A stretch of DNA of 64,000 bases. Origin: Rhodobacterales bacterium (GTDB lineage: Bacteria > Pseudomonadota > Alphaproteobacteria > Rhizobiales > Stappiaceae). Both the position numbers and the translations under genes were made by a program. The DNA lies in the NCBI GenBank assembly GCA_008107755.1, contig VIRH01000087.1, positions 1 through 64,000 on the forward strand. Direction: 5' to 3'. This document shows positions 1 to 62,665 of this stretch, piece after piece. Position 1 is the stretch's first letter. Each line of letters opens with the position of its first letter. The notes beneath the pieces were generated by a model. That model was not told where the DNA came from. It did no database searches and saw nothing but the letters and a program-made list of their open reading frames with translations.

Positions 1-99
1 AGCGACAAAACCCAACATCTCCGCCAACAATTGCGCGTCCGGCGTCTCTGACAAAAGCGCGCGCAAAGAGGCTGTCTCTGATAGTTTGTCCTTGGTCAT
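1..99 (-). CDS. Transposase N-terminus, IS256-family-like (partial, runs off window)
   Basis: This open frame starts with ATG at 97-99 (minus) and continues without a stop to the window edge, giving 33 residues beginning MTKDKLSETASLRALLSE. A clear AGGAG ribosome binding site sits about seven bases upstream. The short hydrophilic start followed by a leucine- and acid-rich helix resembles the N-termini of IS256/Mutator-type transposases. The catalytic DDE part is not in the window, so activity cannot be judged. The family call is tentative. Confidence 0.45.
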   Translation of the reverse strand, partial: MTKDKLSETASLRALLSETPDAQLLAEMLGFVA

Positions 100-179
100 G
101 GTTGTTCTCCTAAGCTCAAAGGTCGGTGTGCAAACCAAACCTTAGCCGAAGAACAACCGTGGCCGCCAAGCGAACCGCC

Positions 180-218
180 CGGGCTTCGCTTCGCTACGCG
201 AAGGCTCCGCTCAGCCCG
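180..218. repeat. Nested hairpin upstream of the transposase start
   Basis: An outer stem CGGGCT/AGCCCG (180-185 with 213-218) encloses an inner stem TTCGC/GCGAA (190-194 with 198-202). It lies between the putative IS end and the transposase start codon. Structures like this commonly protect transposase genes from read-through expression from outside; that role is inferred here. Confidence 0.5.
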
Positions 219-220
219 CG

Positions 221-943
221 CTAACCACACAAATTACACCACTCCGTGGGACACCATCGAACAGAAACCAGATTCATGTCACTGCGCCGTTCACCTTCAT
301 CCCAAGAAGCAGCTTGCAACGGCATCGTCCCGGGTTTGTGTCTTGGCACCGGCGTAGCCAAGATATTTACGTCAACGACACCTTGGGTATCAGAGATAGT
401 GGCCTGCTGCGGCACCCCACGTTCGCCAGCGAGGAGGTTGGACAGGTCCGCATCAGCCTCAGTCTTTCTGAGAAAGTTCTTTAGCTCATCGGTAGGAGGG
501 GAATAGCTTTCTCCAATCCGGCGCTCGACATATGCAAGCTTTTCACCGTAATGAGAGTCGGTCGCATATCCATCGGGCCTTCCATAGCGCAAACCTCTCA
601 TAGCATCTTCAAAAGTTGTCGCAATCATTGCATCGGGCCAGCGTCGGGTAACTGTGCCGACCCAATCCTTCAAGCTTTCTTCCAGATTTTCGTATTTTCG
701 GAACTTGTCTGAAACGTTGACTTTTTGACCATTTACTTCTTCCCAGGTACGAAAATTCTGAACGGACCCTGACCAGGACTTTCCCGCCTTTATCCCAAAG
801 TAATTGTTTCCCTTGACAGATTTTCCATAACCCGTTTCAACTGAAGCTTGTGCTGCCGCCAAGCGCGCCTGCGGTTCGGCCAGACCGATATTTCGAGCGG
901 CAACATATACGCGACGTGCAAATTCATTTACGCGAGCTGACAT
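221..943 (-). CDS. Phage peptidoglycan hydrolase, glucosaminidase domain; 3' end altered by an IS
   Basis: A 240-residue protein with a FlgJ/LytG-type glucosaminidase domain over about residues 10-145. It shows the family motif A-AQASVETGYGKS around a catalytic-type Glu, then a NYFGIKAG segment, a KFRKY region, and GLRYGRPDGYATDSHYGEK near the domain end. It would cleave peptidoglycan glycan strands as an endolysin or virion lysin. Residues 145-227 are a hydrophilic tail, and the last stretch (RWCPTEWCNLCG) is rich in Cys and Trp and coincides with the IS end, so the original C-terminus is probably lost. The start codon CAT at 941-943 shares bases with the opposite-strand ATG at 942. An AAGAAGGA-type site precedes the start. 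Confidence 0.75.
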   Translation of the reverse strand: MSARVNEFARRVYVAARNIGLAEPQARLAAAQASVETGYGKSVKGNNYFGIKAGKSWSGSVQNFRTWEEVNGQKVNVSDKFRKYENLEESLKDWVGTVTRRWPDAMIATTFEDAMRGLRYGRPDGYATDSHYGEKLAYVERRIGESYSPPTDELKNFLRKTEADADLSNLLAGERGVPQQATISDTQGVVDVNILATPVPRHKPGTMPLQAASWDEGERRSDMNLVSVRWCPTEWCNLCG

Positions 944-2974: not shown

Positions 2975-4792
2975 TTATTGTGTCTGCACCGGTGCCCCCT
3001 GAAGAGCGCCCTGAAGCAGTTCCATACCGTCTACACCGCCAGGATCGCTCAGCGCCCCAAGGCCGCCCGAAGCCCCCAGGCCGCCAAGACCACCCGGGCC
3101 GCCTGCGCCACCTTGCGCGCCAAGCGCCTCCAGCATCGGTGCACCGTCCTTTGCCATGCGCGCCATGCTCTCGCCTGCGGCAAGCTGCTGTTGGCGCGCG
3201 GTTTCTTCTTCCCGCTTGCGGCGCAGCTCCTCCACCTCTTCGGGCCTCCGTTTCAGCCGCGCCGGAAGTCCCAGCGCGCGCCGGGTCAGGTCGTATTCCT
3301 CCTGCCGGTCGTGCAGATCCATGATGGTCGGGTCCGCACCGGCGGCAACGCCCAGATATTGCTGGAAACCCATGATCGCCTCGAAGTGGCCCGCCTCGCG
3401 CATCTGGTCGATCGGAGCCGTCGGCACCAGGGTCACGTCCTTGTCGGCAAGGTTCTCCGGCGGCGCCAGCGGAGATCCGGGGGCAAACGCACCGCGCCGC
3501 CCGAGAATCCCGACTTCCCGTTCGAAAAGCGCCTCGTTGCCGGCCATGATGTTGGTCGAGAACGGACCGATCATGTCGGCCATTTCCTTTCGGCGGATAT
3601 TGGCTTCCGTCGCCGTGCGGCCGTTTCCTTCCAGCAGCGTCTGCCACAGGTCGCCATAAAGCCCGATCCGCAGTTTCTCGCGAATGTTCTCGATCTGGCG
3701 GTCTGCCGCTCCGGGGTTCACCGTATCGATCATCGGACGAAACAGCGGTCTTCCCTGCTCGTCGATAAGCCCCGGATTGGTTCGGCCCGGATTGAGGTCG
3801 AGCTGACGCTCCATCATGTGGGTAGCGATCGGCGGGCGCACCGCCTGTGAACTGGCGATCAGCCCGTCCCGTGCAAGGCTCTGCAGGCTCTTGATGTCAC
3901 TCATCAGCTTGGCCTGCGGCGGCGAACCGTAGGGCGACAGCCCGTCGCGGTCCCAGCGGCTGATCACCAGCGGATATTCGAAGAACCCGCCGCGCCGGCA
4001 GATGTGTTTGCTGTCTTCCTCGAAATGCACGCTCTCATAGCGGGACCGGCGAATGTCGGTGGCATCCTCGTAGCCACCTTCGCGGGCAAAGCACGCATGA
4101 ACGAACGTGTGTTCATTGTTCTTCCGCTTCGGGTCCTGCGCATCTTCGCGGACCTGCCGCGAGACCTTGTCGCCATACTCCTTGACCGCCTGCCAGGCCT
4201 TCAGCCTGCGCACGCGGAAAAAGCCGCAGTCGGCGCCCTGACCGTCGACGATCAGATAGACCTCGTAGAGTGGAACATAGCGGTAGTGGATCGGTGTGCG
4301 GATATCGGCAAGGCTGTCCTCGTTTTCGACCGGAAAAAGAACACCCGTGCCCAGCTTGACCGTGGACAGCAGCCGCGACCGATTGGCGAGTGCAAAACCC
4401 GAACGCCCCGTCGCCCGTACGCGGAACAGGTGATCGCGCACCAGTTCGAAGAATTCTTCGTCCGCCTGCGTTGGCGGCGGCGCAAACGGATCGCCGAAGC
4501 CAACGCCGTGCCAGTTGAAGCCTTCCGGCATCGTCAGGGAGCCAACACCGGAGGCAAGCCTGTCCAGCAGCCAGACCGCCGTCGGATCATAGAGCTTGCG
4601 CGAGCGTTCGCGTGCCGCCGATTGGCGAAACGCGCTCATGCCGTCCGGCGCGGCAATTCCTCCCGGCCGGTTGAAGGCGCGTTCCATATCCGGCGCCGTA
4701 TAGGTGACGTAATCCTGCCAGTCGTTTTCGTACCACAGGCGCTCGGATTTAGCGGCCTGCAGTTCCGTTTTCAGATCATCGACAAGACCCAT
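2975..4792 (-). CDS. Podovirus portal (head-tail connector) protein
   Basis: A 605-residue protein beginning MGLVDDLKTELQAAKSERLWYE, with the tyrosine- and tryptophan-rich N-terminal region, the PTAVWLLDRLASGVGSLTMP segment and the later R-YFRGW-free connector core seen in T7/BPP-1-like head-tail connectors. Twelve copies would form the ring through which DNA enters the capsid. The C-terminal 60 residues are Gly/Ala-rich and low complexity. It follows the 74-residue gene by three bases and precedes the Bbp19-like gene, the usual podovirus late order. No disruption is visible, so the protein appears intact. Confidence 0.85.
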   Translation of the reverse strand: MGLVDDLKTELQAAKSERLWYENDWQDYVTYTAPDMERAFNRPGGIAAPDGMSAFRQSAARERSRKLYDPTAVWLLDRLASGVGSLTMPEGFNWHGVGFGDPFAPPPTQADEEFFELVRDHLFRVRATGRSGFALANRSRLLSTVKLGTGVLFPVENEDSLADIRTPIHYRYVPLYEVYLIVDGQGADCGFFRVRRLKAWQAVKEYGDKVSRQVREDAQDPKRKNNEHTFVHACFAREGGYEDATDIRRSRYESVHFEEDSKHICRRGGFFEYPLVISRWDRDGLSPYGSPPQAKLMSDIKSLQSLARDGLIASSQAVRPPIATHMMERQLDLNPGRTNPGLIDEQGRPLFRPMIDTVNPGAADRQIENIREKLRIGLYGDLWQTLLEGNGRTATEANIRRKEMADMIGPFSTNIMAGNEALFEREVGILGRRGAFAPGSPLAPPENLADKDVTLVPTAPIDQMREAGHFEAIMGFQQYLGVAAGADPTIMDLHDRQEEYDLTRRALGLPARLKRRPEEVEELRRKREEETARQQQLAAGESMARMAKDGAPMLEALGAQGGAGGPGGLGGLGASGGLGALSDPGGVDGMELLQGALQGAPVQTQ

Positions 4793-41519: not shown

Positions 41520-41608
41520 TGGATCTGCAGACGTTGTCTGTTTCCACCGCCATCTGGCCAACCACTTCGGCTCCCTTGCGGACGCCGGTCACCGTCAGCA
41601 GATACCCG

Positions 41609-41652
41609 AAAAGCAAACCGCCGGGGCGTTACCTCCCCGGCTGTTTGCTTTT
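41609..41652 (-). terminator. Bidirectional intrinsic terminator of the NTF2-like gene
   Basis: A stem with arms AAAAGCAAAC-CG-CCGGGG and CCCCGG-CT-GTTTGCTTTT, loop CGTTACCT, gives A- and T-runs on both sides. It lies 45 bp beyond the stop of the minus-strand gene at 41697. Confidence 0.75.
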
Positions 41653-41696
41653 CAATAGTGTGTAGGACGACCAGTTCCGACCGGCATCGGAACCCT

Positions 41697-57899: not shown

Positions 57900-59928
<2,029 letters not shown>

Positions 59929-59962: not shown

Positions 59963-60859
59963 ATGGATTGGGATAAACTGCGCATCTTTCACGCGGCTGC
60001 GCAGGCCGGAAGCTTCACCCACGCAGGTGATGCGCTTCACATGAGTCAATCCGCCGTCAGCCGGCAGGTCAGCGCTCTGGAACAGGATCTGGGCGTGGCG
60101 CTGTTTCACCGCCACGCCCGGGGCCTGCTGCTCACCGAGCAGGGCGAGTTGCTCTACCGCACCGCCAGCGACGTTTTGATGAAGCTCGAAGCGGTCCAGA
60201 CCAGCCTCACGGACAGCAAGGAAAAGCCCTCGGGCATCCTGAGGGTCACGACGACGGTCGGCCTCGGATCGACCTGGCTGACCTCGAGGATCAAGAATTT
60301 CATCGATCTCTATCCGGACGTCGACCTGCACCTGATCTTCGATGACGACGAGCTCGACCTCGGCATGCGCGAAGCGGATGTCGCGATCCGGCTGCGCCAG
60401 CCGACCCAGCCGGACCTGATCCAGCGCAAGCTGTTTACCGTGCATTTCCACGTCTATGCGGCGCCGGAGTATCTGCAGCGCTTCGGAGCGCCCGCCTCGA
60501 TCGAGGATCTCGACAATCACCGCATCGTCACCTTCGGGGAACAGGCTCCTGCCTATTTGAGGTCCATGAACTGGCTGGAAACCGCCGGCCGACCGTCAGG
60601 CGAACCGCGGCGCTCCGTCCTCAAGGTCAACAACCTCGTCGCGATCAAGCGTGCCGTCCAGACAAGCGTCGGCATCGCCATTCTTCCGGACTACATCATC
60701 GACAAGGCAACCAATCTTGTGCCGGTGATCTCCGAGCAGGAAGACAAGGTCCCCTCGTTCGACACCTATTTCGTTTATCCGTCTGAATTGAAGAACACTG
60801 CACGGGTGACAGCCTTCCGCGAGTTTCTGCTGACGACCGCTGAAAACTGGGTTTATTGA
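59963..60859 (+). CDS. lsrB: LysR-family regulator, LsrB/VtlR-like
   Basis: A 298-residue LysR protein starting MDWDKLRIFHAAAQAGSFTHAGDALHMSQSAVSRQVSALEQDLG. The substrate-binding domain follows (TTTVGLGSTWLTSRIKNFIDLYPDVDLHLIFDDDELDLGMREADVAIR). The MDWDKLR-IF start and the position after trxB match LsrB (Sinorhizobium, Agrobacterium) and VtlR (Brucella). Those proteins control envelope, oxidative stress and the AbcR small RNAs. A candidate sRNA lies just downstream here, which supports the assignment. Confidence 0.8.
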   Translation: MDWDKLRIFHAAAQAGSFTHAGDALHMSQSAVSRQVSALEQDLGVALFHRHARGLLLTEQGELLYRTASDVLMKLEAVQTSLTDSKEKPSGILRVTTTVGLGSTWLTSRIKNFIDLYPDVDLHLIFDDDELDLGMREADVAIRLRQPTQPDLIQRKLFTVHFHVYAAPEYLQRFGAPASIEDLDNHRIVTFGEQAPAYLRSMNWLETAGRPSGEPRRSVLKVNNLVAIKRAVQTSVGIAILPDYIIDKATNLVPVISEQEDKVPSFDTYFVYPSELKNTARVTAFREFLLTTAENWVY

Positions 60860-60941
60860 TACTTTTGACAATAAATCTGCCTTAAAAAAGTGCTGTCACG
60901 CCGTTTCCCAGGCCCAAAAAACAACCTTTGAGGGATTTCGA

Positions 60942-60965
60942 CAACCTGAAATTATCTTCAGGTTG
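60942..60965. repeat. Perfect inverted repeat after lsrB
   Basis: CAACCTGAA-ATTATC-TTCAGGTTG is a 9-bp perfect dyad with a six-base loop about 85 bp after the lsrB stop. There is no T-run. It may end lsrB mRNA or bind a regulator. Confidence 0.5.
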
Positions 60966-60975
60966 CATTCCCGCT

Positions 60976-61251
60976 TCCGATTCTGCATAGCTGCTCGGAA
61001 ATCGGAGATTCATCGTGTTGATTCCCACATATGGCGACGAATTAAGCAGAGATTTTGTTGATTTCGATTTGTGCAATTCGTCAAAAAAACGCCAAATCAA
61101 CAGGAAAACCAAATTTTTTTACCGTTTGGAAAAAGAAAAATCTGCGATTTCAAGCCACGACCATCCGGCTAAGCGATTGTTTTTTATAAATAAAATAAGA
61201 TATGACAGAATTTTGGCAGAAGATCCGCAGAATTTGCATAGCTGATCTGCG
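60976..61251. promoter_or_regulatory. Paired TGCATAGCTG boxes in AT-rich region upstream of the sRNA
   Basis: TGCATAGCTG occurs at 60984-60993 and 61235-61244. The flanks form dyads: TCCGATT...AATCGGA (60976-60982 with 61000-61006) and CGCAGA...TCTGCG (61226-61231 with 61246-61251). The second box is about 40 bp before the candidate sRNA -10 element. They could be LysR-type (LsrB/VtlR) binding sites. The surrounding 400 bp are AT-rich, with another 8-bp dyad (GACGAATT...AATTCGTC, 61036-61082), and hold no convincing gene. Confidence 0.5.
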
Positions 61252-61297
61252 TCGATGCCTCTTGTTTATGCAGCTTGTGCACTGCATATAAGCATCA

Positions 61298-61430
61298 CTG
61301 TTGGTCACACGGACATCACGTCCTCCTCCCAGTGATGTTCGACCAGCTGTTCCCCTCTGGAAGGTGATTCCACTGTTTACAGTTGAATCAATTCAAACTG
61401 CCGGGTCTTTTTAAGACCCGGCTCTTTTTT
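61298..61430 (+). ncRNA. Candidate AbcR/alpha-r15- or CcsR-like small regulatory RNA
   Basis: A strong intrinsic terminator ends a transcript that has no gene in front of it. Upstream of it, ACATCAC/GTGATGT (61313-61319 with 61332-61338) forms a hairpin whose 12-base loop carries CCTCCTCCC (61322-61330), an anti-ribosome-binding-site motif. A second C-rich run (TTCCCCTC, near 61350) follows. TATAAG (61287-61292) is a -10-like element, so the RNA would be about 130 nt. Position after the lsrB-like gene matches the AbcR loci of Rhizobiales; the loop motif also fits the CcsR/alpha-r14 group. Expression is not shown by sequence. Confidence 0.6.
61400..61430 (+). terminator. sRNA intrinsic terminator
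   Basis: GCCGGGTCTT-TTT-AAGACCCGGC (61400-61422) is followed by TCTTTTTTT, a textbook Rho-independent terminator. Confidence 0.9.
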
Positions 61431-61448
61431 TGCCCATTTGCCCCTCAC

Positions 61449-61486
61449 AAAAAAAGCCCGCCCCGACGCGGATAGCCGGAACGGGC
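61449..61486 (-). terminator. msrP intrinsic terminator
   Basis: On the minus strand, GCCCGTTCCG...CGGGGCGGGC is followed by TTTTTTT, 22 bp beyond the msrP stop. It faces the sRNA terminator. Confidence 0.8.
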
Positions 61487-61507
61487 CATGGCACAGATTT
61501 GCCTCGG

Positions 61508-62479
61508 TTACATGAACAGGCGCTCGCCGGTCATGTCCTTGTAGAGCCCTGCGACCTGTTCTGCGTAGCCGTTGTAGAGAAGCGTATCACGGCGCTCGTC
61601 CGTTCCCAGCAGGCGTTCGGAGGCCTGCGACCAGCGCGGATGGGGCACCTCCGGGTTCACATTGGCCCAGAAGCCATATTCCTGGTCCTGAAGGGACTGC
61701 CAGAAGTTGACCGGCCGTTCGTCGGTGAAGGAAATCCGAACCACCGACTTGATCGACTTGAAGCCGTACTTCCACGGCGTCACCAGCCGGATCGGCGCGC
61801 CGAACTGTTTCAGGAGCGGCTTGCCGTAGATACCTGTCGCCATGAACGTCAATTCGTTCGTGGCCTCTTCCAGCGTCAAACCTTCGACATATGGCCACGG
61901 ATACCATGACTGCTTCTGCCCGGAGGCGATCGACGGGTCCATGAAAGTCTCGAAGCGAAGATACTTCGCACCGCTCTGCGGTCCGGCCATCTTCACCAGC
62001 TCCGAAAGCGCAAAGCCCGACCATGGCACCGCCATCGACCACGCCTCGACGCAGCGGTGCCGATAGAGCCTTTCTTCCAGCGGCATCTTGTTGACCAGCG
62101 TGTCGATGTCGACGACCTGCGGATTGTCGATCATCCCGTCAAGCGTCACGCTCCACGGCCGAATCTCCAGCTTCTGGGCCGCCCGGTAAACCTGCTTGTC
62201 CGTACCGAACTCATAGAAATTGTTGTATCTGGAGGTCACGTCTTCCGGCGTGACGGCCCTGTCCAGCGTGTAGGAGGCATCGCGCTCCGGCGGATAGAGA
62301 CCGCTGCTCGGGTCTTCCTCGGCAAAGGCAGCCCGCGGCACAAACCCGGTTCCGGCAAAAGCGGCGATCGCGCCGGTACCGGCGAGCCCTGCCAGAATCT
62401 TGCGCCGATTCAGGAACACGCTCTCAGGCGTCGCCTCGCGCTCCGGCATTTCCCAGCTGCGCTTCTTCAAAATATGCAT
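61508..62479 (-). CDS. msrP: Periplasmic methionine-sulfoxide reductase catalytic subunit
   Basis: About 323 residues from ATG 62479, with GGGAG seven bases upstream. A Tat signal is present (LNRRKILAGLAGTGAIAAFAGTG). The molybdopterin domain shows YNNFYEFGTDKQVYRAAQKLEIRPWSVTLDG and the Mo-ligand Cys in YRHRCVEAWSMAVPWSGF. It repairs oxidised methionine in periplasmic proteins. The usual haem-membrane partner gene msrQ is not beside it. Confidence 0.93.
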   Translation of the reverse strand: MHILKKRSWEMPEREATPESVFLNRRKILAGLAGTGAIAAFAGTGFVPRAAFAEEDPSSGLYPPERDASYTLDRAVTPEDVTSRYNNFYEFGTDKQVYRAAQKLEIRPWSVTLDGMIDNPQVVDIDTLVNKMPLEERLYRHRCVEAWSMAVPWSGFALSELVKMAGPQSGAKYLRFETFMDPSIASGQKQSWYPWPYVEGLTLEEATNELTFMATGIYGKPLLKQFGAPIRLVTPWKYGFKSIKSVVRISFTDERPVNFWQSLQDQEYGFWANVNPEVPHPRWSQASERLLGTDERRDTLLYNGYAEQVAGLYKDMTGERLFM

Positions 62480-62665
62480 CGTCAAACTCCCGTTTGCACC
62501 AAGAGAAGCGCAAACGTTTCTCAATGGCAAATAACGCCATGGTGACCTCTTCGGTTTGCGAAGCAGTATCCTCGAAAGTTCGACCCGTTCAAGTGACCGC
62601 CACCCTCTGCACCACGGCAGAGGCGATGCGCGTGACAATCACGTTGATCTCGCCGATCGCGCTGT

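Follow-up and report, generated by a model that had tools for sequence, protein, structure and literature searches.

A predicted AbcR1 orthologue beside a cysteine-free LsrB/VtlR-type regulator in Roseibium

The window analysed here, a stretch of 64,000 nucleotides from a Roseibium genome of the family Stappiaceae (assembly GCA_008107755.1, contig VIRH01000087.1, positions 1 to 64,000), contains a LysR-type regulator gene, behind which the initial annotation placed a candidate small RNA at 60860–61430, considered AbcR-like by synteny and similar to CcsR/alpha-r14 in its loop. The locus thus raises the question of which part of that interval forms the feature, to which family the RNA belongs and to what signal its neighbouring regulator may respond. 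The account favoured here, with a probability of about 0.88, is that of an AbcR1 orthologue which would be activated by LsrB/VtlR and would repress the mRNAs of ABC binding proteins through anti-Shine-Dalgarno (anti-SD) pairing, extending a well-studied uptake-control RNA of rhizobia to the marine genus Roseibium.

The conserved island and its neighbours

The forward-strand gene pair preceding the RNA is conserved and consists of trxB (58960–59928, start codon inferred), which encodes a thioredoxin reductase (NCBIfam TIGR01292, 402.5 bits, over the cut-off, 58966–59925 scanned), and an LsrB/VtlR-type LysR regulator gene (59963–60859), an order that is also reported for trxB and vtlR in A. tumefaciens (PMC7486931). 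The convergent neighbour on the reverse strand is msrP (61508–62479, start codon inferred; NCBIfam NF003767, 427.3 bits, over the cut-off, 61508–62497 scanned).

In an alignment of 30 Roseibium loci, the window's own among them, conservation begins at approximately 61235–61236 with a predicted regulator box and stops at approximately 61430 with a T run, while none was seen in 60860–61230. The feature is therefore the island 61236–61430 on the forward strand, comprising a VtlR/LsrB box, a promoter and an RNA of approximately 134 nt with three hairpins and a terminator. The interval 60860–61430 is ruled out by this alignment as a single conserved unit; its downstream part stands, but the quoted span was about three times too long. 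The 370–375 nt of unconserved sequence between the LysR gene and the island include a 9-pair hairpin after lysR (60942–60965) together with a near-copy of the VtlR box that deviates in one letter (60985–60997).

The predicted box (61236–61248, forward strand; GCATAGCTGATCT) matches exactly the VtlR box GCAT-N3-TG-N3-T described at −61 to −49 (PMC7486931, PMC8844928) and occupies the same position relative to the RNA start, as it does before AbcR1, with which the promoter layout is also shared (PMC8844928). The predicted promoter (61261–61289, forward strand) combines CTTGTT (61261–61266) with the −10-like element noticed in the initial annotation, GCATAT (61284–61289), at a distance of 17 nt, and both hexamers are near-invariant in the 30 Roseibium loci; the published PabcR1, CTTGAC-N17-CTATAT, has the same spacing (PMC8844928). 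A scan of 60000–62500 with an E. coli-type consensus returned no promoter. The 5' end of the RNA, at approximately 61297, is inferred from the promoter and the start of the covariance model.

As the RNA lies on the same strand as lysR, downstream of it, and has a strong terminator, it might be taken for the 3' end of a trxB–lysR mRNA, or merely for its terminator, rather than for an independent RNA. This reading is very improbable, since a conserved box and promoter directly precede the RNA and the 370 nt behind lysR are unconserved. The LysR gene lies within 1.5 kb of the RNA in 25 of the 30 Roseibium loci and 1.6–2.6 kb upstream in another four, where the promoter nevertheless stays with the RNA, while in the remaining locus the contig ends first. 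In two of those four, which were examined, an ORF on the opposite strand follows lysR, and one of these two has a further ORF on the same strand, closer to the RNA. As read from the sequence, the intervening ORFs are peptidase-like (reverse strand, directly after lysR) and AsnC/Lrp-like (forward strand) in L376 (12164–14660), and alcohol-dehydrogenase-like (reverse strand, likewise directly after lysR) in L378 (13938–15450).

The box is exact in only 5 of the 30 Roseibium loci, the other 25 having A for T at one position, and this deviation, together with the lack of cysteines in the regulator, could suggest that VtlR control has been lost and that the AbcR1 homologue is constitutive in Roseibium. 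However, the window itself has an exact box, conservation covers the box block and not its flanks, and 29 of the 30 loci retain a LysR gene next to the RNA or not far from it, the remaining contig ending too early; loss of control is thus regarded as unlikely. In the favoured account, LsrB/VtlR made from the gene just upstream would bind the box at −61 to −49 and activate a housekeeping promoter.

Structure of the RNA and its relationship to AbcR1

The predicted RNA (61297–61430, forward strand) contains no ORF of at least 40 amino acids, in agreement with the transcript without coding capacity that was originally proposed, and a coding gene of at least that length within these limits is rejected. 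Its predicted fold has an energy of −52.4 kcal/mol, compared with a mean of −30.1 for shuffled sequences (z −6.16), and none of 200 shuffles was equally good. All features described below lie on the forward strand. Hairpin 1 (61300–61347), delimited by the fold, covariation and motif positions, exposes the motif M1/aSD1 in a 12-nt loop (61320–61331), where the M1 8-mer CTCCTCCC occupies 61323–61330. The motif M2/aSD2 (61349–61357) follows, comprising GTTCCC (61349–61354) and TTCCCCTC (61350–61357) inside the longest invariant block. Hairpin 2 (61365–61390) is retained in the Roseibium consensus, and the A/U-rich single strand behind it (61391–61399), as indicated by the fold, is a candidate Hfq site; such a stretch is reported to be conserved in alpha-r15 RNAs (PMC3712013). 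The third hairpin is an intrinsic, Rho-independent terminator with 10 pairs, a 3-nt loop and a T run (61400–61430), as indicated by both a terminator call and the fold. The C-rich loop, the second C-rich run and the strong terminator of the initial annotation are accordingly all present.

That annotation had made its proposal depend on conservation of the stem-loops in close relatives. In 27 aligned Roseibium copies, the hairpins are kept and 11 of the 38 predicted pairs, 8 of them in hairpin 1, have changed on both sides with pairing retained. RNAalifold applied to an order-wide sequence alignment did not recover hairpins 1 and 2, whereas in single-sequence folds M1 occupies the loop of a hairpin in 71 of 73 cases. 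M2 is invariant in the 27 aligned copies and no more than half open in the fold of the window RNA (0.49, compared with 0.83 in Agrobacterium).

As for family membership, the covariance-model search suggested at the outset gave a full-length match (1–112) to the Rfam model ar15 (RF02345, AbcR1/2) with 31.3 bits (E 0.0016, 6 kb searched), which does not reach the gathering score of 40 bits. The model ar14 (RF02344), which we take to represent the CcsR/NfeR1 group, also matches over its full length, with 27.1 bits (E 0.042), and shares with the window RNA the loop word CCTCCTCCC, the C-rich second run and the terminator. An RNA of the CcsR/alpha-r14 type, whose CCTCCTCCC loop would pair with ribosome-binding sites, is nonetheless hardly credible. 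The score is well below the 58.8 bits required and lower than that of ar15, M2 is absent from the ar14 consensus as far as it is printed, and the synteny is that of AbcR1. Furthermore, two other RNAs of the same genome, neighbours on contig C60 (L175 and L174; 28533–28658 and 29195–29306), pass the ar14 cut-off with 60.4 and 60.7 bits. The proposed resemblance to CcsR/alpha-r14 was therefore rejected, given the low score and the separate ar14 RNAs of the genome. Rfam matches to L20 leader, JA03 and HOTTIP_3 have E values of 2.3 to 4.3 and are ascribed to chance.

As both ar15 and ar14 score under their curated cut-offs, homology to AbcR1 was tested by another route, with a covariance model (R1) built from Roseibium copies alone and applied to 80 named LsrB/VtlR-orthologue loci that had been fetched via the LysR protein and not via the RNA. 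A forward-strand match downstream of LysR was found in 73 of the 80, the first copy lying within 0.9 kb of LysR with one exception at 1.8 kb. In an Agrobacterium locus (L157), R1 matches 3587–3709 (E 1.3e-7), with Rfam ar15 reaching 121.7 bits over 3589–3702, and again 3787–3892, where ar15 scores 68.5 bits; by the published gene order, these two matches are AbcR1 and AbcR2 (PMC7486931), so that the Roseibium model finds the experimentally known AbcR1. An exact VtlR box lies at −75 to −30 of the match in 56 of the 80 loci (73 with a match), mostly at −56 to −62, the chance expectation for that range being 0.006 per match.

Seven of the 80 loci lack a forward-strand match. The contig of L114 stops 124 nt after LysR, L124 and L165 have R1 matches above E 0.1 only, and L104 and L128 have none up to E 1. 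In the remaining two, L163 (Faunimonas; 4–110, reverse strand, E 0.00016) and perhaps also L106 (Propylenella; 116–234, reverse strand, E 0.029), an AbcR-like match lies not behind LysR but on the opposite strand, over 2 kb upstream of the gene, an arrangement that looks as though the RNA had moved.

Across the order, ar15 exceeds its cut-off in 20 of 297 genomes and in none of 14 control genomes, and matches at E <= 0.01 in 67 of the 297; at E <= 10 it also matches in 12 of the 14 controls, never over the cut-off, and its weaker matches are therefore meaningless. In 23 of 30 loci from the order-wide ar15 search, a LysR gene lies within the fetched 1.5 kb. R1 matches at E <= 0.01 in 142 of the 297 genomes and 62 of 117 genera, its E values being rough and about three genomes being expected by chance at that threshold. 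The ar15 cut-off looks too narrow for this order, because 20 genomes pass it and R1 finds 142, with the two models meeting at the same loci, and the standard Rfam threshold thus misses this RNA in most genomes where R1 has a match. The sub-cut-off score of the window RNA weakens its standing as an Rfam member, not its orthology. At the DNA level, the RNA matches 35 of 36 Roseibium relatives, G020 being the sole one without a match, and 6 of 24 genomes from other families of the order.

On the sequence evidence, 61297–61430 is identified as the AbcR1 orthologue of Roseibium, present in single copy and adding a new member to a family already known. The AbcR likeness initially based on synteny is now backed by the full-length ar15 match, the mutual detection of R1 and ar15, the trxB–LysR order and the VtlR box. 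With AbcR1 and AbcR2 of A. tumefaciens and S. meliloti it shares the place behind trxB and lsrB/vtlR (PMC7486931), and with AbcR1 the three hairpins and identical aSD1 (CUCCUCCC) and aSD2 (UUCCCCUC) motifs; it differs from AbcR1 in the sequences of hairpin 2 and the terminator, and in its score under the Rfam cut-off. In contrast to the two copies in A. tumefaciens and S. meliloti, only one was found in the Roseibium genome, where R1 matches once at E <= 0.01 and ar15 once below E 7, neither search revealing a second copy within these limits. A weak R1 match elsewhere in the window (41524–41654, forward strand, 18.1 bits, E 0.0018 for the window) is absent among the genome-level matches. No treatment of AbcR in Roseibium, Labrenzia, Stappia or Pseudovibrio is among the literature matches listed, consistent with the view that the RNA is undescribed in this lineage.

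Anti-SD motifs and predicted targets

In the proposed mechanism, the RNA of approximately 134 nt, folded in silico into three hairpins and ending at the intrinsic terminator, would pair with ribosome-binding sites through M1, exposed in the hairpin 1 loop, and M2, located between the first two hairpins, probably with the involvement of Hfq. Its chief targets would be mRNAs encoding the periplasmic ABC-transporter binding proteins, whose translation it would block. Both motifs (defined in PMC5461406 and PMC8844928) are present as exact 6-mers and 8-mers at 61323–61357, and the anti-SD 8-mers reported to act in S. meliloti (PMC8844928) are both intact in the window RNA.

The region from −60 to +30 of 82 binding-protein genes was compared with that of 1300 other genes of the same genome, the latter drawn from the window and 1.6 Mb of the 6.1 Mb genome. 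The 82 derive from 90 Pfam matches (22 + 36 + 12 + 20) at 84 loci, with labels taken from these matches and gene starts from our own script. Read from the sequence, L239 in the binding-protein set appears to be a lytic transglycosylase that carries a binding-protein domain, and L272, which has an M2 site, appears to be a binding protein within the other set; both stayed in the sets to which their Pfam labels had assigned them.

Among the sites for 128 7-mers of the RNA, the three most enriched at binding-protein genes belong to M2 (two sites) and M1 (one site). The M2 sites GGGGAAC and GAGGGGA each occur in 5 of 82 genes against 5 of 1300 (nominal p 1.3e-4; 0.017 after Bonferroni correction over 128), and the M1 site GGGAGGA occurs in 10 of 82 against 40 of 1300 (nominal p 4.6e-4; 0.06 after correction). 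The site GGGAAC, complementary to the hexamer GUUCCC known from Brucella work (PMC5461406), is present in 8 of 82 against 28 of 1300 genes (p 8.5e-4), and TGGGAG, the site for the Brucella M1 hexamer, in 7.3% against 3.2%. The Shine-Dalgarno words AGGAGG (1 of 82 against 45 of 1300), AAGGAG and GAGGAG are not enriched at the 82 binding-protein starts. The SD-like GGAGGAA, which the RNA does not match in full, is also enriched (8 of 82 against 26 of 1300, p 5.6e-4), and ribosome-binding sites of a certain make may therefore account for part of the M1 signal. ATGAAAA and AAATCAC are enriched above any RNA site. Duplex energies separate binding-protein genes from the others only weakly for M2 (p 0.026); with M1 (p 0.43) and with the 5' half (p 0.94) there is no separation.

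One binding-protein gene with an M2 site (L231) is present in all 41 Roseibium genomes, and the GGGGA core of the site is found in all 30 loci fetched, with the full 7-mer in 15; part of this conservation is as expected for any ribosome-binding site. Conservation of the site at L182 is uninformative, its protein being matched at E <= 1e-150 in only 2 of 41 Roseibium genomes. G020 shares the L182 protein with the window's genome at 94% identity.

A regulator without cysteines

Agrobacterium LsrB (L162) finds its best match in the LysR protein of the window (298 amino acids), with 64% identity against 29% for the next of 1300 ORFs drawn from about a quarter of the same genome as the window. A quick tree places the window protein with other LsrB/VtlR proteins, while four paralogues from the same genome stand apart on long branches (support 94). 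A LysR–AbcR locus is also present in a record titled Bacillus subtilis SK6B4 (L144), which groups with Pseudochrobactrum in the tree and is probably mislabelled or contaminated.

LsrB of A. tumefaciens, likewise adjoining trxB and orthologous to the window protein, is described with four cysteines in two pairs (C144, C236, C244 and C273), of which C144 and C273 are stated to be conserved on the basis of a comparison with two other species, and replacement of C273 alone is reported to raise peroxide sensitivity (PMC11975290). A thiol redox switch is reported for LsrB of Agrobacterium and of Sinorhizobium. In contrast, the window protein has V140, V232, I240 and V271 at the four positions, and no cysteine was found over its whole length. 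Lacking the equivalents of C144 and C273 as well as any other cysteine, it cannot operate an LsrB-type thiol redox switch, and direct thiol oxidation is therefore unlikely as the input of the regulator in Roseibium, which suggests that the signal differs from that of the rhizobial circuits. Of all parts of the locus, only this regulator without cysteine might surprise a specialist, and it raises the question of what VtlR senses where thiol oxidation cannot be sensed.

Among the Roseibium relatives for which the full LysR protein was read, 21 of 22 are likewise without cysteine, and the exception (L031) has one elsewhere. In the wider set of 81 proteins (the window's and the 80 named), both C144 and C273 are present in 45, a count that bears on the conservation stated from three species in PMC11975290. 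None of the four LsrB cysteines is present in 19, the window's included, of which five have one or two cysteines at other places; the 19 come from Roseibium, Stappia, Pseudovibrio, Pleomorphomonas, Cohaesibacter and others, including one Aurantimonas. The distribution of the cysteine pair requires 2 changes on the quick tree, compared with 19.4 in shuffles. The RNA and its place are thus common to many loci in which the regulator lacks the redox cysteines. At about even odds, the VtlR–AbcR1 circuit may be older than its redox input: the regulators of Roseibium and several other families of the order, which lack the LsrB cysteine pair, would answer another signal, perhaps a metabolite bound in the ligand pocket, and thiol sensing would be a later addition, made in the rhizobial, agrobacterial and brucellar lineage to an uptake-control circuit that already worked.
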